64,000 nt of DNA, from the NCBI RefSeq assembly GCF_018449605.1, contig NZ_JAAVUW010000002.1, forward strand, positions 372,001-436,000, given 5' to 3'. This document shows, in pieces, positions 169 to 15,141 of the stretch. Made by a program: the position numbers and the translations under genes. Below the pieces are notes generated by a model. That model worked only from the letters and a program-made list of their open reading frames with translations, was not told the DNA's origin and did no database searches. Numbering within the stretch: the first letter of the stretch is position 1; every line of letters begins with the position of its first letter. Source of the DNA: Luteibacter sp. dw_328. Lineage in GTDB: Bacteria; Pseudomonadota; Gammaproteobacteria; Xanthomonadales; Rhodanobacteraceae.

Positions 169-219
169 CTTTTGGCTAAGGAGGGCGAAAGCGCGAATCC
201 TATGAGTCATGCGAGTGTA

Positions 220-235: not shown

Positions 236-286
236 CGGAATTTGTTAAATGCTATTAGCCTTCGCTTAACAAGTCGGAGGTAGCAC

Positions 287-1486
287 ATGGACGCCCAAGC
301 TTTAAATGCTCTTTGGTTCAACGCCGGATCGGTCTTCACCCCTGGGTCGCCAGTGAACGAACGGGACCTTTTTTCCGGCCGCGTGAATGTCTTGAATCGG
401 ATCCTGACGGCCGTGTCCCAGCGTGGCTATCACGGAGTGCTTTTCGGAGAGCGTGGTGTCGGCAAAACCTCTCTGGCGAATATCCTTACTGGCCACCTGC
501 GGGTGACGCAGAATTACCTAGTGGCAAAGGTCAACTGTGACGCGGGCGATACCTTCAGTTCCATTTGGCACAAGGCGTTCCGCGATATCACATACACCCA
601 CCACTCGACACCTGCGGGCTTTACCGGCACACCCACTCAGCAAGTAATTCCGGTGGCGTCTTCGCTTCCCAGCGTCGTACAGCCTGACGATGTGCGTCGG
701 CTACTTTTCGATCTGAGCTCACAGACGCCTACGCTGATCATTCTCGACGAGTACGATCGTATAGCGGATCGTCAGGTAGCTGTACTAATTTCGGACACTA
801 TTAAATCCCTCTCCGACAACGCCGTCGCAGCATCGTTGCTACTGATTGGAGTAGCTGAATCGGTCGATCAGCTAGTGGAAGGGCATCTGTCCATTGAGCG
901 AAACTTGGTACAGGTTCCGATGCCACGAATGTCTACCGAGGAGATCGCGCAGATCGTGTCCAACGGCCTAACGCGGCTTGGCATGACGATATCGGCAGGT
1001 GGCTTGGCTCACATCGTCGCTCTGTCCCAAGGTCTGCCTTACATCACGCACCTGCTGGCACTTCACAGTACACGCGCTGCGCTGACTAACGAGTCCATGG
1101 AGGTGAACCGCGATCACGTCGATAGGGGCGTTACCGACTCGCTCGATCAATGGCAACAGTCCATCAAATCTTCGTACTACGACGCCGTCAAAAGCCCGCA
1201 GCCGGGAAACATCTTCAAAGAAGTGCTGCTTGCATGCGCTTTGGCAGAAGTTGATGAAGCTGGATATTTCACTGCGGCTGCGGTCAGGTCGCCGTTGAGT
1301 AATATCCTAGGTCGAACGATTGATATCCCTAATTTTGCACGTCATCTGAAGGAGTTCGGACAGGTTGAGCGAGCTGAGATGCTGACCCGGGTTGGAACCA
1401 CCAAGCGATTCCGTTACCGGTTTGTCAGTCCAATCATGCGCCCGTACATCATCATGCGCGGATATGTTGAGGGATTAATCAAGTAA
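287..1486 (+). CDS. AAA+ / ORC1-CDC6-like ATP-binding protein
   Basis: The 399-residue protein carries a P-loop GERGVGKT at residues 54-61 and a Walker B with acidic pair, LIILDEYDRI, at 150-159. A sensor-like stretch LLLIGVAES follows at about 185, then IERN with a possible arginine finger. The C-terminal half looks like a small helical or winged-helix region, as in archaeal-Orc/Cdc6-type or STAND ATPases of accessory loci. A clear ribosome site (GGAGG) lies about 9 bp before the ATG. No effector domain is fused and no obvious partner gene follows directly. It may be the motor of a defence or mobile-element function, but the role is not proven. Base use is less GC-rich than in the core genes. 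Confidence 0.8.
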   Translation: MDAQALNALWFNAGSVFTPGSPVNERDLFSGRVNVLNRILTAVSQRGYHGVLFGERGVGKTSLANILTGHLRVTQNYLVAKVNCDAGDTFSSIWHKAFRDITYTHHSTPAGFTGTPTQQVIPVASSLPSVVQPDDVRRLLFDLSSQTPTLIILDEYDRIADRQVAVLISDTIKSLSDNAVAASLLLIGVAESVDQLVEGHLSIERNLVQVPMPRMSTEEIAQIVSNGLTRLGMTISAGGLAHIVALSQGLPYITHLLALHSTRAALTNESMEVNRDHVDRGVTDSLDQWQQSIKSSYYDAVKSPQPGNIFKEVLLACALAEVDEAGYFTAAAVRSPLSNILGRTIDIPNFARHLKEFGQVERAEMLTRVGTTKRFRYRFVSPIMRPYIIMRGYVEGLIK

Positions 1487-2327
1487 GTCTGCTGTCTTGA
1501 ACCGCCGCTAGATAACCGCCAATCAGGCGCTAAGTGGACCCCAAGGGCCGAGCCTCCGTGCCAAGCCAGGCCAAGGGCAGGGCATGGGTCGAGCGATTCG
1601 CTGGCCGGCGCCTCGCGCATTTGGGCAGACTCGCCGCGACACCAGGAGTAGGGCCAAGCGCCGCCGGCGGCTACGCAAAGCCGACCGCCGAGGAACAAGC
1701 CCGCTACGCCGCCTTCTACGCCTCCTACGTCCCACCCAAACGAACGAGAATTCGATCCCGGTGACTTCGCGCATTCCTTCAGGTCAGGGGAGGTTGAGTA
1801 CGCCGGCTTTCGTGCAAATAGTCGTGCAGGCTGATCGCGCACTGCGGGCAGCCACCGGTAGGCACAATCCGGCATCCCATCTTCATGTGGGTTCGATAGT
1901 AGCGCTGGTGCTTTAAACACCATGCCTCGGCGGCCAGGTTCTGGCGTGACTGGTAGCGTTCGCGCCGCCCTTGGAAAGGCATCACCGCGGTCTCGCGCGG
2001 CGAGTGCTGGACGTGGGAGGCATGAAGACGGGGCAGGGTGCGCCGATGGGGTAGCGCTCACGATGGCGCTCACAGAACCGAAAGCCTCGGCCACCATCGG
2101 AAGAGCGTCGCGTCAGCGCCTAGCGCTGGTCGCGAGCTGCGCGGGAGATACGTCGGAAGGAGTCCATTTGGCGCTTTTCTCGCCACTCGATCTCAACGGT
2201 CGCGACCAGCGGAGCGCGCACAGGCTTGCGCTTGCTGGACGCCACCAGCAGCGAGGGTTAGATTTATAACCGGCGACCTGGTTATTTCACTTCGCGACGG
2301 CTCGGTTCGACTCCATAGGGGGCGACG
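1487..2327. other. 840-bp stretch without a confident gene
   Basis: The stretch holds only short, mutually overlapping frames. Two are worth noting. A GTG-started + strand frame at 1534-1764 has a coding-like second half (Y-A-x-P-T-A-E-E-Q-A-R-Y). A minus-strand Cys-rich frame at 1779-1985 is listed separately. The rest looks like decayed or foreign DNA between the ATPase and the membrane protein gene. Confidence 0.5.
1779..1985 (-). CDS. Possible small Cys/His-rich hypothetical protein
   Basis: This 68-residue frame starts GTG-ATG and contains CLKHQRYYRTHMKMGCR followed by PTGGCPQC. The spaced Cys/His residues resemble a small zinc-binding knuckle. Codons in the middle third look genuine (GGC, TGC, CCG, CAG). 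No good ribosome site is visible upstream, and frames on the other strand overlap it. It could be a remnant or a real small gene of the accessory region. Confidence 0.33.
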   Translation of the reverse strand: MMPFQGRRERYQSRQNLAAEAWCLKHQRYYRTHMKMGCRIVPTGGCPQCAISLHDYLHESRRTQPPLT

Positions 2328-3188
2328 ATGACAGTCAGCTGCATGTCGATCAATGCATGGCTTCAAGCGCTCGGATTCGTCGTCCTCTTGTTGGCGGCTA
2401 TCGGAGGGGGAATTAATGTTGGTACTAGCGGGCTATCCAAGTTCACTCCGAAAAGAAGCTGCGTTGTAGGCGCCATAGGCTTGTTGTTCGCGGTCTTGGG
2501 ATCGCTAAAAGCCGTCCCGGATATCGGAACATGCGTCCCATTACCGTGGCTCAAAGACGACACCGTAATAGCACCACCCGCGCCGGCTGCTCGCCTTGCA
2601 TGGCCAGAGAATGACTGGATCGCTGCGTTAGAGATCAAGCCTGGCGACGGTATTCCAAAGCCGCGACCGATGCCTTTTCACTGGGCGAAGAACGACAATG
2701 GTCTGCTATTGACCTACACCGCGACCGTCGGCGGTCATGTCTGGCGCGTCGACGAACAAGTTGTTAGCGGGAGGATTACCAGGGCGACATTTTTGAGCCA
2801 AGTCGCCGACAGCTGGACCTATAGGCGCAACCAGGCGATTGTCGGTGTTTCGGGGGAAGAAGTTGCCTTGGAGTGCCGTGGCACGGGGCTCGCCAATTTC
2901 AAAGCACGCCTTGCCGGCGAATTTGGGGATCCGCTAAACGGGACCATAGATGAGTCGTCGAAAAGACTGGATCTCGATGGGGTTGGCATGTGTGGGGTCA
3001 GCAGGAGCTGCAAGGGCACGACGACGAAAACTTCTGATCGAACAATCTTCAAGGTGAACACCCAGTGGCAGCTCGAGTTCCGAGCAGAACACATACACAC
3101 CGATACATCGATGATTGACGATGCCGACGACGACGCGGGTTCGATTCGCGATACTTGCGACTGGTCGCTGTATTTCGATCCAGCGTGA
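2328..3188 (+). CDS. Hypothetical protein with two N-terminal membrane segments
   Basis: The 286-residue product begins with two hydrophobic helices, about residues 11-33 and 45-62. A long soluble part follows that is rich in aromatic and acidic residues and carries several cysteines. A purine-rich GGGGGCG precedes the ATG; an in-frame ATG five codons later is a second choice. I do not recognise the family. The C-terminal end, with a run of Asp residues (DDADDDAG), is next to a tRNA-like fragment and convergent with the TIR gene. Sequence composition suggests acquired DNA. Confidence 0.65.
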   Translation: MTVSCMSINAWLQALGFVVLLLAAIGGGINVGTSGLSKFTPKRSCVVGAIGLLFAVLGSLKAVPDIGTCVPLPWLKDDTVIAPPAPAARLAWPENDWIAALEIKPGDGIPKPRPMPFHWAKNDNGLLLTYTATVGGHVWRVDEQVVSGRITRATFLSQVADSWTYRRNQAIVGVSGEEVALECRGTGLANFKARLAGEFGDPLNGTIDESSKRLDLDGVGMCGVSRSCKGTTTKTSDRTIFKVNTQWQLEFRAEHIHTDTSMIDDADDDAGSIRDTCDWSLYFDPA

Positions 3189-3216
3189 GGCGCGATCTGG
3201 CGCTCCCGGCCGACCA

Positions 3217-3280
3217 CGTCCGAAGTTGGACTCGAACCAACGCCCCCCTGATTAACAGTCAAGGGATCTAACGGCTAGGT
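3217..3280 (-). pseudogene. tRNA-Asn(GTT)-like fragment, 5' acceptor arm missing
   Basis: Read on the minus strand, this piece has a D-loop-like AGCCGTTAGA and an anticodon arm with stem CTTGA/TCAGG closing the 7-base loop CTGTTAA. The anticodon GTT is at 3256-3254. A 4-base variable region follows, then a perfect T-arm GTTGG-TTCGAGT-CCAAC and a 3' acceptor-like TTCGGAC. No matching 5' acceptor strand and no encoded CCA are found, so it cannot be an intact tRNA. Such 3'-weighted tRNA remnants often mark integration sites. It overlaps the last bases of the TIR gene. Confidence 0.6.
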
Positions 3281-4066
3281 TTGGCCGTCGCCCGAAGGGA
3301 TTGCGTCAGTCCCGTCAGCGACGCTACCGCCCATCATGGCGCCCCCCGGTGAGATCGAACGCGGATACAAGTGCCGAGCTTGGTTTGCATAAGCCAAGTC
3401 AGACAGGTAAATCTGGGGATCAGCCGGAACGCTCTGATGGATCAAAAGCGCCTTCGCGAGCGCCTGGGCGCTCGGTGTGACCTGATCCTTCTCAAGCCTT
3501 TGGATGCGGCCGGACAGGCCGTGTACGAGGCTCAAGACCTCGTCGAGCTTGTCGCCGTCCGACCTTGGAATGACCGGTTCTGGAGACTCTGTCGTGGCGA
3601 GAATTCCCGACAGTCGAGTTTCAAATCGCGCCCAGTGCGCGGCGATCGACGTTTCCACGATCTCCTGGGGCAGGGGCTCGTCCGTCGCACGATTGACCGT
3701 GTGAACGAGCTGCGCTATTCCTTCGCGTGTGCAAGAGGTTGCGTTAAATTGGCTGAGTGGCATCCCCAAATCGGTTGGCTGAAGATCAATGAGCAGGGGA
3801 ATTACCCGAGACTTCGCTAACCCCTTGGCAAGCGCGCCGGCCTCGAACAGGAGCCAAGGCGCATTTTTATTCGCCGCCGTGACACACAGCACCCCGACAT
3901 TCGTGGAGCTGAGCGCGGTGCTGATCTCCCCAACCCAGTTCGAGCCACGATCAAGCTCTGTGGAAACCCATGGTTTCGACGCTTGGACCACGACCTTGAT
4001 CCAGTCCGCGAGCAACTCGGCGACCCGCTGGCTTCGCTCGCCTGACCAGCTTATAAAGACTTGCAT
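3275..4066 (-). CDS. TIR-domain protein (candidate defence NADase/effector)
   Basis: Residues 1 to about 125 form a bacterial TIR domain: opening strand MQVFISWSGE, DRGSNWVGEI at 39-48, and the box around WLLFEAGALAKG (71-82). Glu75 sits where TIR NADases have their catalytic Glu. The rest (about 130-263) is helical, with heptad-like Leu spacing near 165-195, and may oligomerise or bind a partner. TIR proteins of this kind act in antiphage systems such as Thoeris; here no ThsA-like partner was found next to it. A strong ribosome site GGAGG precedes the ATG, and the promoter region carries a near-exact direct repeat. It is encoded convergently to the membrane protein gene. Confidence 0.85.
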   Translation of the reverse strand: MQVFISWSGERSQRVAELLADWIKVVVQASKPWVSTELDRGSNWVGEISTALSSTNVGVLCVTAANKNAPWLLFEAGALAKGLAKSRVIPLLIDLQPTDLGMPLSQFNATSCTREGIAQLVHTVNRATDEPLPQEIVETSIAAHWARFETRLSGILATTESPEPVIPRSDGDKLDEVLSLVHGLSGRIQRLEKDQVTPSAQALAKALLIHQSVPADPQIYLSDLAYANQARHLYPRSISPGGAMMGGSVADGTDAIPSGDGQT

Positions 4067-4092
4067 GCCGCCTCCGTTGCGGGCTGTCAGCC

Positions 4093-4170
4093 CCGTAAAA
4101 TTGTGCCTCGCATCCTATGCTAATCAATGGTCTATCTGCAAAGCAGCCGTAAAATTATGGTTCGCATCCG
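4093..4170 (-). promoter_or_regulatory. Promoter region of the TIR gene with a 23-bp direct repeat
   Basis: Two copies of CCGTAAAATTxTGxxTCGCATCC lie at 4093-4115 and 4148-4170, differing at three positions and offset by 55 bp. On the minus strand a possible -35 TTGATT (4127-4122) and -10 CACAAT (4105-4100) are separated by 16 bp, with the proximal copy covering the -10 box. The offset is close to five helical turns, which suits cooperative repressor binding. The regulatory role is inferred. Confidence 0.4.
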
Positions 4171-4189
4171 TGTGATTTAGCTGATTCTT

Positions 4190-4211
4190 GCAAGGGACTT
4201 AAATCTCTTGC
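4190..4211 (+). other. 8-bp stem hairpin resembling a tRNA-Leu(UAA) anticodon arm
   Basis: GCAAGGGA-CTTAAA-TCTCTTGC folds with eight pairs, one of them G-T. GGGACTTAAA is the core of the tRNA-Leu(UAA) anticodon arm, although the loop here lacks one A. It lies just upstream of the excisionase pseudogene. It could be a tRNA-derived integration scar or only a hairpin. Confidence 0.3.
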
Positions 4212-4241
4212 CATTCCAACCACGTCCGCGGAGGCCTTGGG

Positions 4242-4475
4242 ATGACGATCGAGGGCAGGATACCGTTCGAAGAACTGGCCCTGACTGCCGACGAGGTCGG
4301 GTAGCTCTTGGGGTGCACCGGCCGCCAGGTGCTCGAGCGGATCGCCTGTAAGCCAGACTTCCCGGCACGGCTGTCTGTTCGGCCAGCCTCGTGGATTGCC
4401 CGCGAGGTTCTGGAGTGGCGTAAGAAGCATCGGGCCGGGCCGCAGAAAAGGCGGCAAAGGGACTCATCCGCTTAA
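4242..4475 (+). pseudogene. Excisionase / AlpA-family DNA-binding protein, broken by an in-frame TAG
   Basis: From ATG 4242 the frame reads MTIEGRIPFEELALTADEVG, then TAG at 4302-4304, then 56 more residues including TGRQVLERIACKPDFPARLS, SWIAREVLEWRKK and a basic tail. This is the winged-helix/AlpA-type layout (LTADEV...LLG...FP.RL...W...EVLEW) of small excisionases or transcription activators of integrative elements. One base change in codon 21 would restore the gene. A ribosome site GGAGG lies upstream. It sits immediately before a tRNA-derived attachment-like site, as expected at the end of an integrative element. Confidence 0.7.
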
Positions 4476-4487
4476 TCACCGGCATTT

Positions 4488-4583
4488 GTGAGTAATGGTG
4501 TGAGTAAGATCCGACGTTAATGGTTGAACGGCATTGTCGCCCATGGGTTCCTACAATAGTTTCGAGTCCCACTCCGGGCACCA
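4488..4583 (+). other. Attachment-site-like region (copy 1): GTGAGTAA arms plus tRNA 3' end
   Basis: GTGAGTAA occurs at 4488-4495 and again at 4500-4507, exactly 12 bp apart. A tRNA 3' end follows at 4561-4583: T-loop TTCGAGT, T-stem 3' strand, acceptor strand TCCGGGC, discriminator A and CCA. The bases before the T-loop do not pair with the T-stem, so only the 3' end of a tRNA gene is present, as left by tyrosine-recombinase integration. A related copy lies at 9278-9360. The excisionase pseudogene adjoins it on the left. Confidence 0.65.
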
Positions 4584-4754
4584 TAGGCTTAGGCTGTTTC
4601 CCCCTCGATCTCTCGTCCGGCTATGTCTGTTAAGACGTAAGACGAGTGAAGATAAGAAACCAAGCAGCACCATCCCCCAAGAAGCGCCGCACCGGAAGCG
4701 CACCGCCCGGGTTCGGGCGCGTATCCAGGTTGTCGGGGCTCAATCTTGCTCGTG

Positions 4755-4805
4755 TTCGCAGAGGCTGCGATGCTGGGTAGGTCAGCTTTCGCGGCGTAGC
4801 AGACC
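4755..4805 (+). repeat. Divergent copy of the GACCC-loop palindrome with its left flank
   Basis: TTCGCAGAGGCTGCGATGCTGG at 4755-4776 matches 7351-7372 at 20 of 22 positions. The following GTCAGCTTTCG...AGCAGACC (4781-4805) corresponds to the palindrome found after 7376. It ends upstream of the zinc-ribbon gene and is the most decayed copy of the family. Confidence 0.45.
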
Positions 4806-4851
4806 ATGTACGGACACGTATAACCCAGAAGCCAAAGGAGGGTGCGGGCAG

Positions 4852-5151
4852 ATGGTCACGTCAGTCGAATGTTTGAACTGCGGAACACCGCATGGGGTCG
4901 ATGTGCTTCTCGATAGTTGCGCAATCTCATCAACAGAGGCCTCGGTATTACACTTTTCGTGCCCTAAATGCTCGGCGGAATGTCCAATTGCAGTGCAGGA
5001 AGACCGGGTTGCTTGGGCTCGCGAGCTGCCCATCGAATCATGGCTTCCTGTTCCGGGCCTGGAAGTGCGCGCGTTCTCTGGCTTTGTTCACGTCTGGTAC
5101 GCAGGCCGACACTGGGCTATTGCAGACCGTCATATGATCGACACGCATTAG
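4852..5151 (+). CDS. Small zinc-ribbon hypothetical protein
   Basis: The ATG at 4852 is preceded by AAAGGAGG at good distance, so the longer upstream open frame is not used. The 99-residue product has CLNC (9-12) and CPKC (39-42) pairs, a classical zinc-ribbon spacing, then a short aromatic C-terminal part (WYAGRHWAIADRH). No signal peptide is seen, so it should be cytoplasmic. Family unknown. Its stop codon abuts a palindromic repeat, as do other small genes of this segment. Confidence 0.65.
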   Translation: MVTSVECLNCGTPHGVDVLLDSCAISSTEASVLHFSCPKCSAECPIAVQEDRVAWARELPIESWLPVPGLEVRAFSGFVHVWYAGRHWAIADRHMIDTH

Positions 5152-5175
5152 GTCTGCTTCTGACCCGAAGTGGAC
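5152..5175 (+). repeat. GACCC-loop palindrome, copy A
   Basis: GTCTGCTT-CTGACCCG-AAGTGGAC begins directly after the stop codon of the zinc-ribbon gene. The 8-base arms pair if two G-T pairs are allowed. Confidence 0.5.
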
Positions 5176-5250
5176 TTGGGCGCGTCGGTTTGAGCGGCTT
5201 ACCTTGTCAGGATTTCTACACGTTTGGATGGGTTCTGAGGAGCTTGGTCA

Positions 5251-5763
5251 ATGAAGTGTCTCGCGTTTCTATTGCTCGCGTTCGTTTCCTTTGCTGCTGC
5301 GGGTAGGCCTTCCAACTTCTTTGCGGGCGATCTCAAACCCGCGGCGAGCGAATACGCGCGTGCTGCTGGCCTTGCACCGTTAAGGTCGACAACAGGCTTT
5401 GAGCTCCGCGTCTGGACCCGCGACTACATGTCCGGCAGGGTCGCTGGATTTATTGTGTCTAACGGCAAGCAACGCTCATTCGCAAGCGAATCAACTCATC
5501 ATCAAGGAACCTTGGTCGTCAAAACGGCCGGTTTAGAAGTCGAGAAACCGGTGTTCGATCTGGCCGGCCTGAAGAAGCTCATTGAGGTGTTGAAGGCTTA
5601 CAACGGAAAAGCTGCGTCGTGCGGTGTTATGGATGGCGAATCGGACCTGGTGGACGCGGTTGTGCAAGGTCAGGTTGTTACCGTCGAAGTCGACAACCCA
5701 AGACTGTGTTCCGACAAGGCGTCCAGGACGGTGGCTGCAGTTCTCGATGCGCTTCGGCACTGA
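5251..5763 (+). CDS. Secreted hypothetical protein
   Basis: The 170-residue protein starts MKCLAFLLLAFVSFAAAG, a signal peptide with likely cleavage after AAA or AAAG. The mature part (about 150 residues) is mixed alpha/beta with two cysteines (CGVMDGESDLVDAV and NPRLCSDK) that could form a disulfide. GAGGAG lies 9 bp upstream of the ATG. I do not recognise the family. The next small gene follows closely and may share its transcript. Confidence 0.65.
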   Translation: MKCLAFLLLAFVSFAAAGRPSNFFAGDLKPAASEYARAAGLAPLRSTTGFELRVWTRDYMSGRVAGFIVSNGKQRSFASESTHHQGTLVVKTAGLEVEKPVFDLAGLKKLIEVLKAYNGKAASCGVMDGESDLVDAVVQGQVVTVEVDNPRLCSDKASRTVAAVLDALRH

Positions 5764-5830
5764 AATGAGCAAACGCTCAGGCTGCTTTTGCCACCCATCG
5801 TCAAAGGCCGAGTTTCAGGAGGATCTGATC

Positions 5831-6139
5831 GTGGTTGGAAGAGAATCGCCCGATTTCATCGCTGAAATTAAACTTCTTCCTACCGAAGCAGGGGGGCGCA
5901 AGATCGCGTTGCCCCGTGGCGAGTGGCGCACCGTGCTGGGTATAGATGGTGAACACTGGTCTGCGATACTTAGGTTCGAGGAGGCGCCAGCTCCTGGGGC
6001 GACCTTCGAAGCGAACGTATGGCTACTAATGGGCGACATAGCGCTTCCAATGTTCGAAGCGGGCAAGATGTTCGAGGTTTGGGAGGGCGGCACGAAGGCA
6101 TGGGGGCGCGTGAAACGAGTGACGGCGCGCTCCGCTTAG
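5831..6139 (+). CDS. Small EF-Tu domain-III-like beta-barrel protein
   Basis: I chose the GTG at 5831 because AGGAGGA sits seven bases before it; an in-frame ATG at 5765, right after the previous stop, would add 22 residues unlike the family. The 102 residues read FIAEIKLLPTEAGGRKIALP, an EF-Tu C-terminal-barrel signature (AEVYVLSKEEGGR in EF-Tu). The closing GDIALPMFEAGKMFEVWEGG matches the HPIAM...FAIREGGRTVG region. It lacks the GTPase and domain II, so it is a stand-alone barrel. Its role is unknown; stand-alone versions of this fold may bind RNA or proteins. Confidence 0.65.
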   Translation: MVGRESPDFIAEIKLLPTEAGGRKIALPRGEWRTVLGIDGEHWSAILRFEEAPAPGATFEANVWLLMGDIALPMFEAGKMFEVWEGGTKAWGRVKRVTARSA

Positions 6140-6158
6140 AATTCGCTTGCACAAAGAT

Positions 6159-6180
6159 GTCCGCTATCGACCCAAAGCGG
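6159..6180 (+). repeat. GACCC-loop palindrome, copy B
   Basis: GTCCGCTATCGACCCAAAGCGG has arms CCGCT/AGCGG around a loop with GACCC. It starts 19 bp after the EF-Tu-like gene. Confidence 0.5.
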
Positions 6181-6221
6181 CCTTAGTGCAGGCCGGGCAT
6201 AGGATCAGTCAGGGGGTTCCC

Positions 6222-7061
6222 GTGTACGTAAATCGAGTCTCTGTCACAAGTACGAAGCCGGACAAATGCAGCAGGGAATCCGGCGTGGATCTGCTTGTAA
6301 CGATGCTCGCGGCATACCGTATGAATGGACAGATCTGTGGACGCGAATGGCCGATCGTAGCTGAAGGAGAAATCGTTTCGGCGATCGTGCTTTCTCCCGA
6401 AGAGCGGTCGTTCGATGCCCGCTTCAATGGCAAGTATGTCACCGCGGCGATGGCGCACTGCGAAGCTGAAGGACTGCTCATTACATTGGAAGTGCTTGGT
6501 GAGGATGCCGAATCCTTACCCTCATGTCAGTGCCATCGCCCGAGCGCCTATGTGCTGTTCACGAGCTACACCGCTTTAGAATCACCGATTCGATGCATGG
6601 ATTGCTTCGGCCCGATAGCGTTGTATCACATGGAAGTCATGGCAAGTGGGGAGTTCCACGAGCTTGTAACGTGGCAATCAGACTATCAGTCCTGCGATCA
6701 GCTTCAAATGAATTGCAGCGTTCTAGAGCAGGAGGCGACGCGAGAGCTTTCAAGCATTGACAGTAGCTTGAATAAAATCGGGTTGGCGCACTGCCAGACA
6801 CTCGCCACCACCAGCAATCGCCCCTTCTACTATTACCTATTCAGTGGTGAGAGCGAGAGCCTTCAGACTGAACTTGAACGGCGGTGCCCTGGCTGCGGAA
6901 ATGATTGGCGCCTCACGTCACGACTTCACGACCTATTCGACTTCAGATGCGATCGTTGCCGTTTGCTATCGAATATAGCTTTCGACGTCAGATGGGAGCT
7001 TTCCGCCGAGCCAGGCCGAACGCCGGAAGGAACACCAACAAACGAGCCAAAGCTGATATGA
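6222..7061 (+). CDS. DUF2310-type Zn-ribbon protein, possibly nucleic-acid binding
   Basis: The GTG at 6222 follows AGGGGG and starts VYVNRVSV, a natural N-terminal strand; an ATG at 6147 would add 25 residues overlapping the repeat. The 279-residue product has CQC and CMDC pairs in the middle, the block WQSDYQSCDQLQMNC...E...LSSIDSSL, then PFYYYLF, and a C-terminal ribbon CPGCG...FDFRCDRCRLLSN. This layout matches DUF2310 as I remember it. It ends in an ATGA overlap with a doubtful downstream frame. The protein is cytoplasmic and its role unknown. Confidence 0.7.
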   Translation: MYVNRVSVTSTKPDKCSRESGVDLLVTMLAAYRMNGQICGREWPIVAEGEIVSAIVLSPEERSFDARFNGKYVTAAMAHCEAEGLLITLEVLGEDAESLPSCQCHRPSAYVLFTSYTALESPIRCMDCFGPIALYHMEVMASGEFHELVTWQSDYQSCDQLQMNCSVLEQEATRELSSIDSSLNKIGLAHCQTLATTSNRPFYYYLFSGESESLQTELERRCPGCGNDWRLTSRLHDLFDFRCDRCRLLSNIAFDVRWELSAEPGRTPEGTPTNEPKLI

Positions 7062-7460
7062 GAACCTCTGTAGAAGATGAGCTGACGGCCTTTCTCGTCG
7101 TTCTGGTAGGTTCGGTTACGATAAATGGTTGGATTCCGGGGGGCGGGGCACCCCCACCGCGGAAAACCTTCAGCTCATCCTGCTCGGTTCTTCCGCAGGC
7201 GCTTCTATGGAGGAATCGTCGTGTCGACGATCCGTCCCTGCTTTGTTCCCCCAGGTTCCCGCCATCCGCTAGGTCCAATGTTAGAACTTGCCCTTTCCTA
7301 GGTGGCCTTATGACCAGCCGCCACCCGTTGAACCAACGGTTTCACTATGCTTCGCAGAGATTGCGATGCTGGTGATGTCCGCTTCGACCCGAAGCAGCCA
7401 CTATCAGCCTAGGGTAGCCAACATGGCTCGGCGCACGTTGCTGGCCGATAAAGGGGAAAT
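7062..7460. other. 400-bp stretch without a confident gene
   Basis: A frame from ATG 7058 (overlapping the previous TGA as ATGA) runs 105 codons to 7375. After the first 25 residues its composition (Pro, Arg, Ser) is unlike a folded protein, so I do not call it. A GC-rich inverted stretch GGGGCGGGGCACCCCC lies near 7138-7155 and could act as a terminator-like hairpin. Copy C of the palindrome family lies at 7377-7399. Confidence 0.45.
7377..7399 (+). repeat. GACCC-loop palindrome, copy C
   Basis: GTCCGCTTCGACCCGAAGCAGCC has a perfect GCTTC-GACCC-GAAGC core. Its left flank TTCGCAGAGATTGCGATGCTGG (7351-7372) matches the flank of the copy at 4755. Confidence 0.5.
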
Positions 7461-7922
7461 ATGAAGAAGTTCTTCCAGATCCTTGGCGGGATCTTTTTGG
7501 TGCTGGTCTTGATCATCGCCGCATTCGTGGGTATGGGCATTTACCAAGGCACTCGCCTCGACTCGTCTAGTAAGGCCTATGTCGAAGCAAACGTGAAGCC
7601 GGTCGTCGCTACCTGGTCAAAAGATGAGCTTCTGAAGCGTGCGTCACCGCAGCTGATTGAAATTCTTGGCAAGGAACCGAGTCAGGTTGATCGCCTGTTC
7701 GAAAAATTCTCCAAGCTCGGCGCTCTGAAGAGTTTGAGCGAACCGAAGGGCCAGTCGCTTGTGGCGATCAATACCGGTAGCGGCAAGGTGATCAGCGCCT
7801 CTTATACAGAAACCGGCGAGTTCGAGAACGGGCGCGCCGACTTTAATATTCGGCTGATTCAAATCGACGGCGAGTGGCGCTTCCTTGGGTTCCACGTGGA
7901 CTCGCCGATCATGCTCCAGTAG
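7461..7922 (+). CDS. Single-pass membrane-anchored hypothetical protein
   Basis: The 153-residue protein opens with MKKFFQILGGIFLVLVLIIA, one strong membrane helix (about 7-28) that most likely stays as an anchor. The remaining 120 residues would face the periplasm. They end in a beta-rich part (NIRLIQIDGEWRFLGFHVDS) reminiscent of NTF2-like or DUF4019-type folds. AAAGGGGAA precedes the ATG. The family assignment is tentative. Confidence 0.65.
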   Translation: MKKFFQILGGIFLVLVLIIAAFVGMGIYQGTRLDSSSKAYVEANVKPVVATWSKDELLKRASPQLIEILGKEPSQVDRLFEKFSKLGALKSLSEPKGQSLVAINTGSGKVISASYTETGEFENGRADFNIRLIQIDGEWRFLGFHVDSPIMLQ

Positions 7923-7963
7923 CCGGAGGCGGTTCAGTCGGTAAAGGCATCGATGTCGCATGC

Positions 7964-7983
7964 CCGCTTCCGACCCGGAGCGG
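7964..7983 (+). repeat. GACCC-loop palindrome, copy D
   Basis: CCGCTTCCGACCCGGAGCGG forms arms CCGCTtC/GgAGCGG around CGACCC, 40 bp after the membrane-anchored protein gene. Confidence 0.5.
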
Positions 7984-8165
7984 ACCCTTTTATTTCACTT
8001 CATGCGAGAGGGTAAGAATTGGACTTCAACGCTTTCAAATCGCTCGTAGTCGCGGCGGTCGCCTACGCGAAACAGTTACATTAATTCCGAACTCAAGATC
8101 GGACCGCTACTGAATACGGGGGGCGTCGGTGGGAGTGAGGTGCAGAATGCGCCATCCGGCAGTGG

Positions 8166-8678
8166 TCACATCGCCTTGGCAACCTTCGTAGCCATGCTCT
8201 CAATGATGGAGTCCGGGCTGCTCAGGTTGTTAGCAGTGCCTCGGTCGTTGAAGAACGACACCACGGAGCCGTCAGAGGTCTTCAGGATGCGGACCGCAAC
8301 ACCTGCTCGCTCGCTTCGAAACGTAAACGGGGCCACCCGGTAGTAATCCTGCACCTCACCGTTGACCACGTAGGCGTAGCCCCTGCCTTTGGCGTAGGCG
8401 GCTGCATCGCTGTCGGATAAGGCATCCTTCGGGCCTACTGGCCTGTCCAAGGGCACTGCCTTCTTCCCGGCCGTGGAGGCGATGACTCTGGCGAATACGG
8501 AGCCGGCGCTCAGCCCAGAACCGTCGCAGTCCTCTTGCCCTTGGATTGTGCAGTCCCGAAACATGACGACTGCCACGTCGGAGCCGGTGGGCATCTTGTC
8601 TCTGACGGTCACGGGGGCCCCTGCGCAGCCTGTCATTAGCCCAGCCACAATTCCCACTGCGGCAATTCGCCTGTTCAT
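8166..8678 (-). CDS. Lipoprotein, DUF4823-like
   Basis: The ATG at 8678 overlaps the TGA of the gene before it (ATGA), so the longer upstream frame is not used. The 170-residue product starts with a lipoprotein signal (IVAGLMTGCAG, lipobox Cys near residue 18). Its soluble domain has FRDCTIQGQEDC, DAAAYAKGRGYAYVVNGEVQDYYRV and TSDGSVVSFFNDRG. That pattern resembles the DUF4823 family of outer-membrane lipoproteins. Third gene of a minus-strand three-lipoprotein operon. The substrate is unknown. Confidence 0.7.
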   Translation of the reverse strand: MNRRIAAVGIVAGLMTGCAGAPVTVRDKMPTGSDVAVVMFRDCTIQGQEDCDGSGLSAGSVFARVIASTAGKKAVPLDRPVGPKDALSDSDAAAYAKGRGYAYVVNGEVQDYYRVAPFTFRSERAGVAVRILKTSDGSVVSFFNDRGTANNLSSPDSIIESMATKVAKAM

Positions 8679-8905
8679 CGCTTGCACTCCACTTTTAGGG
8701 TCTTTCGGTTGAACCCCGGTTCCTCCGAAACGGTTCGGTAGCCGTTCGGGCACTCCTTCGCGGCCCTGTCGTAACAGATGGAGAACGACAAGCCAGACCC
8801 GCACTGGACCATTACGATGGGGTCGCCACGGTCGTCATAGATATGGGTTGCAGTGGTGCAACCGGCGAGAAAGATTGATATGGCCGCGACTATCAGGGCC
8901 CTCAC
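8675..8905 (-). CDS. Small lipoprotein
   Basis: The 76-residue product starts MRALIVAAISIFLAGCTTAT, a type-II signal with lipobox LAGC and Cys16. The mature 60 residues carry four further cysteines. It overlaps both neighbours by 4 bp (ATGA), which indicates translational coupling within the operon. Family not recognised. Confidence 0.65.
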   Translation of the reverse strand: MRALIVAAISIFLAGCTTATHIYDDRGDPIVMVQCGSGLSFSICYDRAAKECPNGYRTVSEEPGFNRKTLKVECKR

Positions 8906-9216
8906 TGGACGGGGGCCACGATGACCAAACCGGTATTCGCCTGGTTCTGCCGGACCACGCCAGAGCCGTACTGGGCGACACGTCCGTCCTTCAGCAATAC
9001 CTGATAGTCAGCCAGGTCCCACGACCAGCCGCTCATTAGGCGATTCTTGTAGGTGAGCACCTGATAACCGTCCTGCTCGCTGAAGCCATCGGGACGCCCC
9101 ATCTGCTTCTCCACGGTCTGCCGGTCCATACCGGCATCGAGGCGACGCATCTTTTCGCCTGTCGCACACCCGGCCAGCAGTAGCGATCCGACGACCGCAA
9201 GAAGCACCTTGTGCAT
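8902..9216 (-). CDS. Lipoprotein with a BamE/SmpA-like motif
   Basis: First gene of the lipoprotein trio, with GGAGGG upstream of the ATG. The 104-residue protein starts MHKVLLAVVGSLLLAGCATG (lipobox LAGC). Then comes RLDAGMDRQTVEKQMGRPDG, the helix-turn pattern typical of BamE/SmpA-like folds (G-M-T...V...G.P), and a two-strand end LTYKNRL...YQVLLKDGRVAQYG. It should be anchored in an envelope membrane facing the periplasm. It lacks evidence of being the true BamE, which is usually elsewhere. Confidence 0.7.
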   Translation of the reverse strand: MHKVLLAVVGSLLLAGCATGEKMRRLDAGMDRQTVEKQMGRPDGFSEQDGYQVLTYKNRLMSGWSWDLADYQVLLKDGRVAQYGSGVVRQNQANTGLVIVAPVQ

Positions 9217-9277
9217 GTTCGTCCCTCCCCAGTGACGACCCCGAACCTAGTTTAGGCTCATCTAGGCAAGTCAGCAG

Positions 9278-9360
9278 GTGAGTAACTATGGGAGTAACCG
9301 GCAGGTTTCGGTCTTAGAAGCCGCCTACTATCTAGGTTCTGGATGCCCACTCCGGCACCA
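9278..9360 (+). other. Attachment-site-like region (copy 2)
   Basis: GTGAGTAA at 9278-9285 is followed 12 bp later by GGGAGTAA (9290-9297). CCCACTCCGGCACCA follows at 9346-9360, one G shorter than CCCACTCCGGGCACCA at 4568-4583. Same order and same arm spacing as copy 1. Together they bracket 4.8 kb of small accessory genes. Confidence 0.55.
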
Positions 9361-9409
9361 AAGTCAGAGAATCGACATCTCACCTGTGGCTTTCGTTCTT
9401 CTTCATCCC

Positions 9410-9604
9410 ATGCCCGCGACGGGCCCAGGACCTCTGTTCCTCACGGGCTGGGGGGCCCTAGTGGCGTTCGTGATCCTCGCGACCATCGCTGTGGGGGGAT
9501 GGAGCTGGCTGCTGCGCCGAAACCGTGGGCGCATCGAAGCCGAGAAGAAGCGTTTCGGAAAGGGTAGTGCGGAAGGCCGACGCAAGCGCCTCAAGCTGCG
9601 CTAG
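9410..9604 (+). CDS. Small single-pass membrane protein
   Basis: The frame from ATG 9410 gives 64 residues: a short polar start, one membrane helix (about 10-32, WGALVAFVILATIAVGGWSWLL), and a very basic tail (RRNRGRIEAEKKRFGK...RRKRLKLR). The basic end fits a positive-inside cytoplasmic tail. No ribosome site is visible. A GTG at 9386 or 9278 in the same frame is possible, so the start is uncertain. Confidence 0.5.
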   Translation: MPATGPGPLFLTGWGALVAFVILATIAVGGWSWLLRRNRGRIEAEKKRFGKGSAEGRRKRLKLR

Positions 9605-9714
9605 GCAAACTATGATTGCGACTTCCCCGAGGCGAAGCTTTGGGGACCAAGGAAGCCGCCCAGTTCGACATTGTCGGCGCGGCGGTCGAAGTCCGGATCT
9701 TAGGAGAGTCAACC

Positions 9715-9909
9715 ATGCGCTTTCTTGCCTGCTTGTGCGTCGCGTTCTGTCTCTCGGCATGCGCCACGGCGTCGCCGAACTGGGCTGACGATCGTCCTCC
9801 CGTCGGTGTGCAGGGTCCTAAGCCTATGTGCTCATCCGGCCCTGGTGGCAAGACCGCTGCGTGTGCCACGGCGATTCTCGAAAACACGGCCATCCAGTCG
9901 AAGAAGTAA
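9715..9909 (+). CDS. Small lipoprotein
   Basis: AGGAGA lies upstream of ATG 9715. The 64-residue product starts MRFLACLCVAFCLSACATAS, with lipobox LSAC, then a short Pro/Gly-rich mature part with two cysteines (PMCSSGPGGKTAACA). It ends 4 bp before the next gene, so the two are probably cotranscribed. No family recognised. Confidence 0.6.
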   Translation: MRFLACLCVAFCLSACATASPNWADDRPPVGVQGPKPMCSSGPGGKTAACATAILENTAIQSKK

Positions 9910-9913
9910 ATCC

Positions 9914-10372
9914 ATGGCAGCAACACCCGATCAACTACACGAGCTTCTTTCCTACTGCATGGACTTTGCTCACACCATGCTCAAGGACTCCGGGGAGTTC
10001 TTCCCGTTTGGAGCGACACTTTCGCCTGACGGCGAGGTGGCCGCTGTCGGGGGGTGGGACGGCGACGAGAGGCCAAAAAGCCAGGAGATCTACCAACTGC
10101 TGGCCGGTGCATTCATCTCAGCGGTGGGGGAGGGGAGAGTCATCGGTGTCGCGCTTGCTGCCGATGTCAACGTACCCGACCGATACAACTCGCCAGTGAA
10201 GGATGCACTTCGGGTGCAACTGGAAGCTCCGGGCTTCGCTCGGTTCATCTACGTGCCCTATGAACTCCTGCTGCCGAGTTTGACGGTGGCCGAGCCCACG
10301 TGGGTCATGCATGAACCCTTCGCGGTCGAGATCAAGCCGATGTTCTTTCCGCTCCCGTCTGACAAGATGTAA
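9914..10372 (+). CDS. Conserved hypothetical cytoplasmic protein
   Basis: The 152-residue product begins MAATPDQLHELLSYCMDFAH and contains FFPFGATLSPDGEVAAVGGW and GDERPKSQEIYQLL. These look like a widespread family of small soluble proteins often met beside polymorphic-toxin or accessory loci. No signal or membrane segment is seen. It follows the small lipoprotein by 4 bp. The immunity-protein idea is only a guess; no toxin lies nearby. Confidence 0.65.
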   Translation: MAATPDQLHELLSYCMDFAHTMLKDSGEFFPFGATLSPDGEVAAVGGWDGDERPKSQEIYQLLAGAFISAVGEGRVIGVALAADVNVPDRYNSPVKDALRVQLEAPGFARFIYVPYELLLPSLTVAEPTWVMHEPFAVEIKPMFFPLPSDKM

Positions 10373-10477
10373 TAGATATAGCGGAGTGGCGGTGCTTTGA
10401 CGGCCGTTGACGCGTTGTGCAGTAACGACTGAGAATCCTTAAGCGTCAGTCGGCGCATGACAGGGAAGGAAGTGGAC

Positions 10478-10861
10478 ATGATGGGGAACGATGCAGAGAT
10501 ACTCGATGCCTTCCTTGCCGCCCCTTCGGACGAGCTGGTGGTATTCGAACGACGCATGCCGGGCATAGACGACGAGCACGATGAAGGTCTACTCGTTGCC
10601 ATTCTGGATGAGTGCAAGGCTCGCTTCGCCAGTTGGCGCGAACTCTGCGAGTTGAAACTGGGGCCACCCGACCTGACGCATAAAACGCGCGGGGAGTGGG
10701 TATGGGAGCTTCACCCCTTTGCTGGCGCACTGAACGCCTGGGAACGCGGCTATCACTTCCTGTTCGTTGCGTCGTGCCAGGAAGACCGCGATATGCCGAT
10801 CCGGGTCGTTCTTGGCTTTCGCAAACCTATGGACCCTGACGAACGCATGGAGTTGGAGTGA
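10478..10861 (+). CDS. Hypothetical protein
   Basis: AGGGAAGGAAG precedes ATG 10478, so the ATG seven codons upstream is less likely. The 127-residue product is acidic in its first half (PGIDDEHDEGLLVAILDECKARF) and has a Trp-rich centre (GEWVWELHPF, NAWERGYHFLF) and a soluble profile. It may be an immunity-type or accessory protein; I do not recognise it. Confidence 0.55.
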   Translation: MMGNDAEILDAFLAAPSDELVVFERRMPGIDDEHDEGLLVAILDECKARFASWRELCELKLGPPDLTHKTRGEWVWELHPFAGALNAWERGYHFLFVASCQEDRDMPIRVVLGFRKPMDPDERMELE

Positions 10862-11028
10862 CCATACTCGATGGTGGCATTGGATAGCCCAGCTTTTCGT
10901 GGACACTCAGGAGCTGTTTTGCGCCAGAGGGGGTGGTAGGCCGGATGTCGTCCCGCAGCTACAATGCGCCTGCCCCAAGGGGCCCAACCGGTCAGCCGGC
11001 CGGGTATCGATCTGGAACAGGGAATTTC

Positions 11029-11667
11029 ATGAAGAACGTTCTGCTACTCACCGCCGCTGCCGTCGCGGCACTCTCCACGTCGAGCGCTGTCTTCGCGGAC
11101 AGTCAGGGCGCTTTCGTCCAGGCGAACGCTGGACACGCCAATTCAAACGTCAAGAGCAGTTCCGCGTACGGCGTGTTAGGCGGTTACCGGTGGACGGTCG
11201 ACGCGCCTTTCTACCTGGGGATGGAGGGCGGTTACATGAACCTCAACCACTCTCACTTCACATACAAGAACACCCTGGTGACTACCGACATCGTCGGGCC
11301 GCACACGTTGACGAGTCAGAGCCGGGTCGGTTCGAAGAACGAAGCCCTGCTCTTGGGCGTCAACGGGAAGTGGGAACTTCCCGGGCGGTACTTCATCACC
11401 GCTCATGCGGGTGTCGCCCGCTATAGGAACGTCGTTCGCGTGCATTCGACGGGCACGCTCGATGGTTTGCCCACGGATGGCTTCCATGACCGGTACCGCT
11501 ACTACGACACCAACTATTACGCAGGCATTGGCTTCGGCTACGACTTCAATCCGCAAGTCAGCCTCAGCTTCAACTACGACCACTACGCTCCCCGGTACGA
11601 AGCGTTCGGCGTCAAGGAAGATGTCAATTTCGACGCTTACGGCATGGCTGCGGAATTTCGATTCTGA
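11029..11667 (+). CDS. OmpA/OmpX-like outer-membrane beta-barrel protein
   Basis: The ATG at 11029 (ACAGGGAA upstream) begins a clear signal peptide, MKNVLLLTAAAVAALSTSSAVFA. The mature 190 residues alternate polar and aromatic residues in eight-strand fashion (GVLGGYRW, FYLGMEGGYMNL, YYAGIGFGYDF, VSLSFNYDHY). The chain ends with Phe (AEFRF), the signal for barrel insertion by the Bam complex. It is a small outer-membrane porin-like or adhesion barrel; the specific ligand is unknown. Confidence 0.8.
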   Translation: MKNVLLLTAAAVAALSTSSAVFADSQGAFVQANAGHANSNVKSSSAYGVLGGYRWTVDAPFYLGMEGGYMNLNHSHFTYKNTLVTTDIVGPHTLTSQSRVGSKNEALLLGVNGKWELPGRYFITAHAGVARYRNVVRVHSTGTLDGLPTDGFHDRYRYYDTNYYAGIGFGYDFNPQVSLSFNYDHYAPRYEAFGVKEDVNFDAYGMAAEFRF

Positions 11668-11874
11668 GTGAACCGCGCTTGTCGACAGGTGCCTGATTCG
11701 CGGATGACATCGCAATCAAAACCATCGTGAGTCCGTTGTTGTTTTTCTTCTTCGTCACGCTGGCGCTTTGGATTCGTCAGCGCATGACTTACGGCAGGTG
11801 ATGTGACCTACGGCCATTGACGGATCCTCCGAGCGCTAGCCAGAATGCCCGCGCCATCAGGGGAGATGATGTTC

Positions 11875-12045
11875 ATGGATGTAGTGCAGGGTTTCTGGGA
11901 GAGGCCAGCAGGGAACACGCTTCGCTGGGTTTTGTTCGTACCAGCAGCGATAGCTGGAAACTTCTTGGCGTCCGTCCTCGTGGGCGTGTATGACCGCACC
12001 CCCGCGCTCTCGGCAGAACGCATCGACAGGGAAGAGTGGACATGA
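11875..12045 (+). CDS. Small membrane protein, coupled to the next gene
   Basis: GGGGAG lies about 10 bp before ATG 11875; ATGs at 11866 and 11845 are in frame. The 56-residue product has one membrane helix (NTLRWVLFVPAAIAGNFLASVLVGVY) and an acidic tail. Its TGA overlaps the next ATG (ATGA at 12042-12045), which supports its being translated. Confidence 0.5.
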   Translation: MDVVQGFWERPAGNTLRWVLFVPAAIAGNFLASVLVGVYDRTPALSAERIDREEWT

Positions 12046-12626
12046 CAACGGAAGACTGGCTCAAACGCGGCATGGACATCGCGTGGCTGATACTCCTGTT
12101 GTGGTGGCTGGTCAGCGCGTGGGGAAATAAATCCGTCGCGCGCGGCGAACCGTGGCTGACGCGGTTATTGCTTTACTGGTTGCCACTCGTCGTGGCGTTC
12201 GGCTTGCTTGGGCCCGGGGATTGGTTTGGCCACACCTGGCTTCGCGAGGGAATCGTGCCGCATACGGTGCCGGTTTTCGCTGTCGCGCTGCTGCTCGTGG
12301 TGACGGGAGTCGCCCTGGCGTGTTGGTCCAGGTATCTGCTCGGGCGCAACTGGAGCAGCGTTGTCCAGATCAAAGAAGATCATGAGCTGATCGAGGCCGG
12401 CCCCTATCGTTACATTCGGCATCCCATCTACACCGGCATCCTGCTTGCCTTCATCGGCACTGCGCTGAAAGAGGGTGACGTGCGAGTCATCTTCGGCGTG
12501 TTGATCGTCTTCCTCTCGTTCTGGCGCAAGCTGAGAATGGAAGAGCGGATGCTGGGCGAGACCTTCGGCGAAACCTACGCCGCTTACCGGGCGCGGACGA
12601 AAGCCTTGATTCCCGGCGTCCTCTAG
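12042..12626 (+). CDS. Isoprenylcysteine carboxyl methyltransferase-like membrane protein
   Basis: The 194-residue protein has four or five membrane helices. The ICMT/PEMT signature GPYRYIRHPIYTG lies near residues 121-133, followed by EERMLGETFGETYAAYRART, the second conserved block that helps bind S-adenosylmethionine. Bacterial members methylate unknown lipids or small molecules. It is translationally coupled to the small membrane protein before it. An in-frame GTG two codons earlier is the only start alternative. Confidence 0.85.
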   Translation: MTTEDWLKRGMDIAWLILLLWWLVSAWGNKSVARGEPWLTRLLLYWLPLVVAFGLLGPGDWFGHTWLREGIVPHTVPVFAVALLLVVTGVALACWSRYLLGRNWSSVVQIKEDHELIEAGPYRYIRHPIYTGILLAFIGTALKEGDVRVIFGVLIVFLSFWRKLRMEERMLGETFGETYAAYRARTKALIPGVL

Positions 12627-12639
12627 TCGACACGAACGT

Positions 12640-13083
12640 TCAGAACCACCGTGATTCGCGATCGATGACCAATCGGTAATAGCTGACATTGGCGCGTGCG
12701 CCATAGACGGCCGAGATGCCGGCACCTAGCGCTCGGAAGTGACGACCCAGTCCGATCATTTCGAGGACGAACAGGCAGACCAGGCTCAGCATGAAATAGC
12801 CGAGTGCCTGGCGGTACATCCCTTTGACGATGAAGTAGATCGGGCCGAAAAGAAACGCGAGCAGGTTGAGCGTGACCGCGAACCGTTCGCCGAAGGGGAG
12901 AGCCCTGATGTTGGGCAGGTCCGGGCCGCCTGCGTCCCTGATCGTGCGAAAACGGCGCTTCCAGGTCTCGGACACGTCGGCCCGTTCGATGGGATCGGGT
13001 GCGACGAAGGGTTTCCTGGGCTCCGCCGACTCAACGGGCATGGGAGCCACCTGGGAGCCATAGGAGTTGTAGGGATCGCTCAT
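12640..13083 (-). CDS. DUF2628-like membrane protein
   Basis: The 147-residue protein has a soluble N-terminal 80 residues. The last part holds helices FAVTLNLLAFLFGPIYFIVKGMYRQALGYFMLSLVCLFVLEMIG and the GPIYFIVKGMYR motif typical of DUF2628 proteins. The function is unknown. It is convergent with the ICMT-like gene. Confidence 0.75.
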   Translation of the reverse strand: MSDPYNSYGSQVAPMPVESAEPRKPFVAPDPIERADVSETWKRRFRTIRDAGGPDLPNIRALPFGERFAVTLNLLAFLFGPIYFIVKGMYRQALGYFMLSLVCLFVLEMIGLGRHFRALGAGISAVYGARANVSYYRLVIDRESRWF

Positions 13084-13296
13084 CGGGTCCGTCCGGTGGG
13101 AACTAAGGTGGGCAGATTCTCAAATAGGAAAGGGTCAAATCGCAAGTAGTTGCCGAATTCGCAGATTATTGATGTCAGGAGTGCTCGACGGATAAGGGTC
13201 GACGCGTCCGCAGGTTGTCGGTTCATTGCCCTGAGAAAGCCAGCCGCCACGGCCACAGTGATGGCTCTTGGATTCGCTATTCGCACAGGGGACGAC

Positions 13297-15116: not shown

Positions 15117-15141
15117 CGTCGTGCACCCGGCGCGGTGGTCC

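Follow-up and report, generated by a model that had tools for sequence, protein, structure and literature searches.

Cis-mobilizable elements (CIMEs), as portrayed in the sections of PMC5704250 that deal with tandem accretion, have lost their integration genes, have kept their attachment sites, and lie stacked behind one tRNA gene that serves several elements. In the KplE1-type module, the left attachment site (attL) overlaps the integrase promoter beside a tRNA gene, as outlined in the part of PMC2951348 on that module. The locus considered here lies in a 64,000-nt stretch of Luteibacter sp. dw_328 (C11:372001-436000 of a 5.05 Mb genome in 21 contigs; hereafter, the window), in which two tRNA-tail-like sites, at 4488-4583 and 9278-9360, are separated by 4.8 kb of DNA. 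Both are right-end attachment sites (attR). They very probably represent the remnants of two elements with PF13356-type integrases that entered the same tRNA-Leu(TAA) gene successively (accretion), and the inner 4.8 kb would then be a CIME-like segment. The attachment-site part of the locus is close to known CIME-like accretion and shares the three features named above, but the armed left end is missing. Instead of flanking attL and attR sites, two attR-type sites were found, and the left boundary of the inner segment has a core but no arms on its inside, leaving an attL that is incomplete by the description in those sections of PMC5704250. Relatives carry the same kind of right end together with an integrase. 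The locus resembles the KplE1-type module in that the integrase gene starts beside the tRNA, with arm-type sites in the promoter region; it differs from the module, as presented in that part of PMC2951348, in its two spacing subclasses and clade-dependent heptamer, and the binding is here predicted from sequence.

Two attachment sites of one tRNA-Leu gene

The components of the two sites, with the evidence for each in parentheses, are as follows.

4488..4507, plus strand: left attR, arm-type pair GTGAGTAA-N4-GTGAGTAA of the 96-nt subclass (motif search, family scan, spacing)
4559..4583, plus strand: left core, a copy of the tRNA-Leu(TAA) 3′ end that forms the right end of the outer segment (24 of 25 nt equal to the intact tRNA, the last 22 exact)
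9278..9297, plus strand: right attR, arm-type pair GTGAGTAA-N4-GGGAGTAA of the 83-nt subclass (motif search, family scan, spacing)
9346..9360, plus strand: right core, a copy of the tRNA-Leu 3′ end lacking one G that forms the right end of the inner segment (sequence, spacing)

An initial annotation, made from the letters of the window, had placed two matching tRNA-derived sites at these positions and had proposed that they share one tRNA target. Both sites were recovered there, and a genome search located the intact tRNA-Leu(TAA) gene at C11:364808-364894, 7.1 kb to the left of the window, in a Gly-Cys-Leu tRNA cluster preceded by uvrC and pgsA (open reading frames (ORFs) read by eye). The last 22 nt of this gene are repeated exactly at 4562-4583, which is the duplication of the tRNA 3′ end that characterizes tRNA-targeted genomic islands with a PF13356 integrase. 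The right copy reads CCGG-CACCA, one G fewer than the tRNA. The sites divide the region into an outer segment of 11.7 kb, from the tRNA to 4583, and the inner segment of 4.8 kb.

In the window, the pattern GTGAGTAA-N4-GKGAGTAA was matched twice at up to 2 mismatches, both times exactly, compared to 0.01 matches expected from shuffles. Octamers of the form G[TG]GAGTAA occur only four times on both strands of the 104 kb at C11:332001-436000, and these four form the two pairs. Throughout the genome, the arm-pair pattern was found at up to 2 mismatches at just the two places in the window. The core word CCCACTCCGG by itself was observed 8 times at 1 mismatch, against 7.8 expected, which is not significant; since it is no commoner than chance, an independent test was required. 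The significance of the sites accordingly derives from the 22-nt exact match to tRNA-Leu(TAA), and from the fixed distance between arms and CCA end in relatives.

Arm pairs and spacing subclasses in relatives

The search for further arm pairs, proposed in the initial annotation, yielded 25 places in 19 of 233 family genomes for GTGAGTAA-N4-GKGAGTAA, and none for the reversed pattern. The pair occurs in two contexts. In one, the arm pair stands 113-125 nt past an intact tRNA, and inverted TTACTCAC copies and then the start of an integrase gene come next; in the other, the arm pair precedes a copy of a tRNA 3′ end. On reading the 25 places, 8 were found to precede a start resembling that of an integrase gene, together with inverted copies (L017, among these 8, yielded no tblastn match at 1e-40), and 1, in G106, shows this arrangement but without an integrase; another 10 precede a tRNA-like 3′ end, 3 a CCA 96 nt away for which no tRNA was identified, and 3 belong to no clear class. 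Complete elements, with both ends and an integrase, were found at tRNA-Leu(TAA) in G055 (about 13 kb), at tRNA-Asn in G050 (about 7 kb), and in G105, where the left end stands at tRNA-Leu(CAA) with slightly changed arms and the matching right end lies about 18 kb away. A further complete element with integrase lies in G107 behind a 57-nt tRNA-Leu copy. Five backbone proteins from these complete elements were compared to PHROG; one resembles DNA-binding families there, and the remaining four are without a match.

Spacing was measured from the first base of the arm pair to the CCA end, the tRNA end being taken as the first CACCA or CGCCA that ends 60-110 nt further on. Seven sites show a spacing of 83 nt (the right site of the window, G055, G105, G107, G109, G122, and G050), five a spacing of 96 nt (the left site of the window, G087, G074, G142, and G210), and G144 alone has 97 nt. 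A single site family for both ends was thus ruled out, and what had been read as two copies of one site are, judged from the sequences, two subclasses (96-nt and 83-nt) at one tRNA, both assignable to one integrase family. The 83-nt cores could be compared to the intact tRNA of the same genome in five of the seven cases (this genome, G055, G105, G107, and G050), and each is one base short just before CACCA or CGCCA, which suggests that the exchange point lies within the last bases of the tRNA.

The arm-type integrase

The integrases of the relatives consist of PF13356 (arm-binding), PF22022, and PF00589 domains. A heptamer pair at exactly 12 nt, together with an exact inverted copy near the start codon, was found upstream of 31 of 35 integrases, and of 26 of 30 when the five that had been chosen by the motif itself were left aside; L017, a sixth such locus without a tblastn match, was not counted. 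Other heptamer phases between 8 and 17 gave 0-3 cases, and shuffles gave 0. The heptamer tracks the integrase clade: GTGAGTA accompanies the eight closest integrases (at least 73% identity), and GGGGGTA, GACGGTA, or GGGGGCA accompany many others at 60-66% identity. The same arm rule was obeyed in 30 of 36 usable IMG/VR stretches, with about eight heptamers and many near-identical rows (17 loci were too short, and only exact duplicates had been removed, near-duplicates being kept). The initial assignment of the repeats to tyrosine-recombinase arms is thereby upheld, in that matching arms stand beside PF13356 integrases in relatives. Relatives of the G107 integrase occur in 218 phage records, all at less than 60% identity.

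The cognate integrase expected of a tRNA-targeted island was found in relatives and not in the genome under study. The G107 integrase, encoded at L032:6265-7491, had no match in this genome at E 0.001; as a control, 113 of the 233 family genomes, including seven of the genus, matched it at E 1e-80. An integrase ORF does lie beside the tRNA, where the initial annotation had proposed to look for one, but it is of a different type. It was ruled out as the cognate enzyme, as it is encoded on the minus strand, has no PF13356 match, and has no GTGAGTA arms. This ORF matches a PHROG integrase over residues 42-295, with a Pfam match below the cut-off, and is probably broken. Among the eight ORFs of the inner segment, no integrase or transfer family was recognized in Pfam, and no other search for transfer genes was made.

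Insertion hotspot and proposed history

The end of tRNA-Leu(TAA) is present in 20 of 23 genomes of the genus, this one included, and the gene is an insertion hotspot. The 1.5 kb after the tRNA are alike over nearly their full length, from near the tRNA on, in three pairs only (this genome and G107; the second copy in G107 and G108; G110 and G112), and other pairs share partial similarity there. In G111, G113, and G123, the same 1.5 kb match the window at 12-19 kb, that is, DNA beyond the elements, and the tRNA was found a second time 40-44 kb further on in G107, G110, and G112. The DNA behind the tRNA is, therefore, strongly variable between species, the genomes compared being of different species rather than strains of one species.

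The outer segment is a composite: its left end is prophage-like and has another integrase, probably broken, and this part is joined to an arm-type element's right end. Over its first 1475 bp beyond the tRNA, the segment shares 80% identity with G107, where the order is tRNA, prophage-like element, 57-nt tRNA copy, arm-type element with integrase, and armed attR. The SRAP gene and 54 nt of the outer segment have counterparts in the right part of the prophage-like element of G107, a stretch that closes with phage-tail-like ORFs (by eye). On the strength of the 1475-bp similarity, the SRAP and 54-nt matches, and the arm-type attR end, the outer segment fits the G107 order after a deletion.

In the history that we propose, the N-terminal domain of a PF13356-type integrase would bind the paired arm heptamers (here GTGAGTA, with a 12-nt phase) at the two ends of the element, and strand exchange would take place close to the CCA terminus of the tRNA; the left-end arms would stand just before the integrase gene. 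Two integrative elements may have entered tRNA-Leu(TAA) one after the other, and a prophage-like element may have entered the same tRNA later. Deletions would then have fused the prophage-like element to the right end of the outer element (at about 3.3-4.6 kb of the window), and would have removed the integrase and attL of both arm-type elements. Left between the attR cores would be a CIME-like remnant of 4.8 kb, with core sites, one armed end, and no integrase, whose cargo comprises hairpin-tagged single-gene units and lipoprotein-like genes. The tandem decayed elements of the initial annotation are supported; its layout of elements stacked behind one tRNA stands, except that the outer segment is composite.

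Several observations weigh against this history. At 2 mismatches genome-wide, the reversed arm pattern (4 matches) is as frequent as the motif (2), and the weight of the arm pair rests, therefore, on its exactness and its context. The arm pairs of G017 (72 nt, and also 113 nt after an intact tRNA-Asn) and the two places in G141 (no tRNA end seen) fall outside the spacing classes. No precise empty version of the 4.8-kb segment was found in the species comparison, which had been called for and otherwise revealed the strong variation described above. No arm motif was found at the left end of the inner segment, which is, thus, not a complete element. Finally, G112 carries at the same hotspot the first unit of the inner segment (C1, see below) and the gene at 9914-10372 without arms or a right core, and has an acyltransferase-like gene (by eye) where the rest of the inner segment would be; this sharing indicates that the segment is old and partly rearranged, and that its inner boundaries do not delimit one recent unit.

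That tRNA-like words lie beside direct repeats by chance, with no history of recombination, would agree with the chance frequency of CCCACTCCGG and with the four genomic matches of the reversed arm pattern. This explanation is very unlikely given the 22-nt exact tRNA match, the fixed spacing classes in several genera, and the same-arm integrases of relatives. The inner segment might instead be a satellite that is non-autonomous but still working, and that the integrases of related elements mobilize in trans, as its right end is kept with an exact 83-nt spacing, arms, and core. A stretch of about 2.9 kb in G112, with no recognized integrase, runs from tRNA-Leu(CAA) to an armed right end; this end is homologous to that of the inner segment (83% over 625 nt) and shows the same 83-nt spacing (counted by hand). 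G112 has no integrase match at E 1e-80. However, the armed left end is missing in both the inner segment and the G112 stretch, and in the latter the first arm has a base change and the core ends in CGCAACA rather than CGGCACCA, which looks like decay. An active satellite is improbable. The non-autonomous cargo proposed in the initial annotation stands insofar as no integrase was recognized and attR is kept; because left-end arms were not seen, the segment could at most be moved in cis or within a composite.

The inner segment and its cargo

The inner segment holds about five hairpin-tagged single-gene units between 4781 and 7985, some of them decayed, which end in a hairpin of a sequence close to GTCCGCTTYCGACCCRNAGCRGAC. 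The cargo had been noted as small genes; most of it consists of these units, which had escaped notice.

4781..5175, plus strand: unit C1, with decayed hairpin 4781-4804, small gene 4852-5151, and hairpin 5152-5175 (alignment)
5176..5800, plus strand: unit C2, with gene 5251-5763 and an end hairpin that is not recognizable (homology to units in G052 and G088 from hairpin 5152 on)
5800..6182, plus strand: unit C3, with a gene from 5765 or 5831 to 6139 and hairpin 6159-6182 (homology to G049 stops at the hairpin in both)
6183..7399, plus strand: unit C4, with DUF2310 gene 6222-7061 and decayed hairpin 7377-7399 (Pfam match)
7400..7985, plus strand: unit C5, with gene 7461-7922 (membrane-anchor-like start) and hairpin 7962-7985 (83% to G084)
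8060..8130, plus strand: remnant of an insertion-sequence end (70-nt repeat after a transposase-like C terminus in relatives)
8166..9216, minus strand: three small lipoprotein-like genes (8166-8678, 8675-8905, and 8902-9216) that adjoin attR

Unit C1 is 87.6% identical to a unit in G059, the alignment starting and stopping exactly at a hairpin (0 nt) in both genomes, and 90% identical to G112 at the same tRNA hotspot. The alignment of C5 with G084 ends 14 nt from the hairpin in this genome and 1 nt from it in G084. The DUF2310 assignment of the initial annotation was verified (PF10071, E 4.7e-75), but its “zinc ribbon” and “EF-Tu-like barrel” have no Pfam match at E 0.05, and two of its lipoprotein trio also have none, the third matching only below the curated cut-off. 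Overall, that interpretation is partly supported. In G105, G122, and G112, portions of the lipoprotein-like block are found again next to the armed right ends. Many family genomes contain the 70-nt repeat of 8060-8130; it was considered as a new element and rejected, as it is a transposon end that follows a transposase-like C terminus in relatives; we take it to be of the IS3 type.

Other features of the outer segment are listed below.

287..1486, plus strand: AAA ATPase (PF13401, E 7e-9)
3214..3276, minus strand: part of a tRNA-Asn, reaching from the anticodon arm through the T arm (58-nt alignment with the intact G050 tRNA-Asn, 93%)
3275..4066, minus strand: TIR-domain protein (PF13676, E 1.4e-8)
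4242..4475, plus strand: small ORF with an in-frame stop that adjoins attR (sequence)

The outer segment (L007:14185-19597, window 287-4066) contains genes for PAPS-reductase-like, SRAP, AAA ATPase, and TIR proteins, a set that may be defence cargo. The tRNA-Asn fragment, which recurs in G112 (L083:2298-2340; 95% over 43 nt), may be another attachment remnant or a phage-borne piece of tRNA. The 56-aa piece after the in-frame stop of the ORF at 4242-4475 had no PHROG match; the ORF may be an excisionase-like pseudogene.

Hairpin-tagged arrays in Dyella and related genera

In Dyella and other related soil bacteria, units of this kind are strung together in long one-strand arrays. The unit-end hairpin was found at up to 1 mismatch in 77 of the 233 family genomes, compared to 0 for the reversed control, with up to 103 copies in a single genome, where they are distributed over several arrays. 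Exact hairpins also occur in Lysobacter, Pseudoxanthomonas, Rhodanobacter, Luteibacter, Massilia, and others; Dyella belongs to the Rhodanobacteraceae. In IMG/VR, the hairpin was found in 2 stretches. Array stretches were chosen for a match to the inner segment or for hairpin content, with L088 and L090 excluded as hairpin-poor. Hairpins in the 15 stretches used, which come from 14 loci, had a median spacing of 533 nt (93 spacings), and no opposite-strand copy was found at 2 mismatches; L141 had been cut where its hairpins switch strand, so the one-strand result there holds by construction. Flanks were analyzed for 96 exact hairpins from 80 of 92 stretches, those less than 100 nt from a locus end being omitted. 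AAT precedes the hairpin and AT follows it, and conservation stops beyond.

Among 38 array alignments, 3 had each of their four ends no more than 10 nt away from a hairpin (4781-5175 with G059; G049 with G048; G112 with G059), and 8 more, including those of C2, C3, and C5, had one end that lay at most 14 nt from a hairpin in each of the two genomes. The other 27 were without such ends, many being, by eye, transposase copies, flanking genes, or parts of genes. A flanking gene conserved in 13 Dyella-group genomes is accompanied by an array in G049 only, no hairpin being present within 1.5 kb in any of the remaining 12; this comparison used long flank matches, G060, G062, G088, and G089 being omitted for their short ones. 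One G049 array (L137:5217-5301) begins about 1.3 kb past tRNA-Leu(GAG), likewise a tRNA-Leu gene, and no second copy of the tRNA-Leu(GAG) end was found in the 20 kb of that stretch. IS30-like transposases (by eye) lie inside the G049 arrays L135, L136, L137, and L138. Ten sampled array proteins included one SUKH and one DUF7674 match below the cut-off. The SUKH protein recalls polymorphic-toxin immunity arrays, which differ in that the arrays described here carry a hairpin tag; no toxin gene was recognized next to those that were read by eye, and no toxin search was made. Rfam returned nothing at gathering score in window 1-16000; for L136 and L085 it gave three matches that stay under this score, and none of them coincides with a hairpin. 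The hairpin sequence was not found in the literature searched, nor were the arrays described among the matches listed for Luteibacter islands and Dyella cassettes, and they may be new.

As a tentative proposal, which we hold possible but less likely than not, the cargo reflects gene-cassette exchange outside integrons, in which genes ending in a hairpin of about 30 nt would be gathered in one-strand arrays by an IntI-independent recombinase, and could ride on tRNA-targeted elements. Two other origins have to be weighed. Ordinary integron cassettes would account for one gene per unit on one strand, and for the hairpin-to-hairpin homology in 3 of the 38 alignments. Clusters of attC sites lacking integron-integrases (CALINs) occur in about half of Xanthomonas genomes according to the survey figures in PMC12444791, a frequency that counts in favor of this origin, and the arrays resemble those treated in that part of PMC12444791 in their single-gene, one-strand units, some swapped unit-wise, and in their mostly unknown proteins. 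They differ from them in having a hairpin near AATGTCCGCTTYCGACCCGAAGCGGACATT without attC R′ and R″ boxes, and in genomes that mostly lack an IntI match. Around the 96 exact hairpins, GTTRRRY was found in 8 cases downstream and 7 upstream, and RYYYAAC in 5 upstream and 4 downstream. The integron integrase TIGR02249 was matched at E 1e-60 in 6 of 39 genomes with at least 5 hairpins (33 had no match), versus 107 of 194 others, a division counted by hand from the result tables; the genome under study had no match at that threshold. Integron cassettes are, thus, unlikely. A somewhat less doubtful, still not probable, origin is that the hairpins are terminators, or repetitive extragenic palindromic (REP)-like repeats spread by a REP-associated tyrosine transposase (RAYT), with the arrays as a by-product. 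The hairpin is short and stable as DNA, much more so than shuffles (fold z -5.9), and often lies just past a stop codon, a stop trinucleotide being found within 15 nt upstream in 72 of 96 cases, compared to 33 and 44 of 96 in two control windows. Against such an origin, 12 genomes were searched for a Y1 transposase, and 6 of them yielded one; none was found in G056, which has 103 hairpins, nor in G046, G054, G055, G232, or G202. None of the 7 Y1 transposase places had a hairpin within 1.5 kb, so no RAYT gene flanked by the repeat was seen, and the hairpin copies keep to one strand per array.

Implications

The arm rule, which combines two heptamers with a 12-nt phase, another copy in inverted orientation where the integrase gene starts, and a fixed distance to the tRNA end, lets an orphan attR reveal the clade of the integrase to which it belonged. 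As the clade is readable without the integrase or attL, decayed islands could be mapped across genomes. If the hairpin-ended units are indeed moved singly and without IntI, they would constitute a second kind of bacterial cassette platform.

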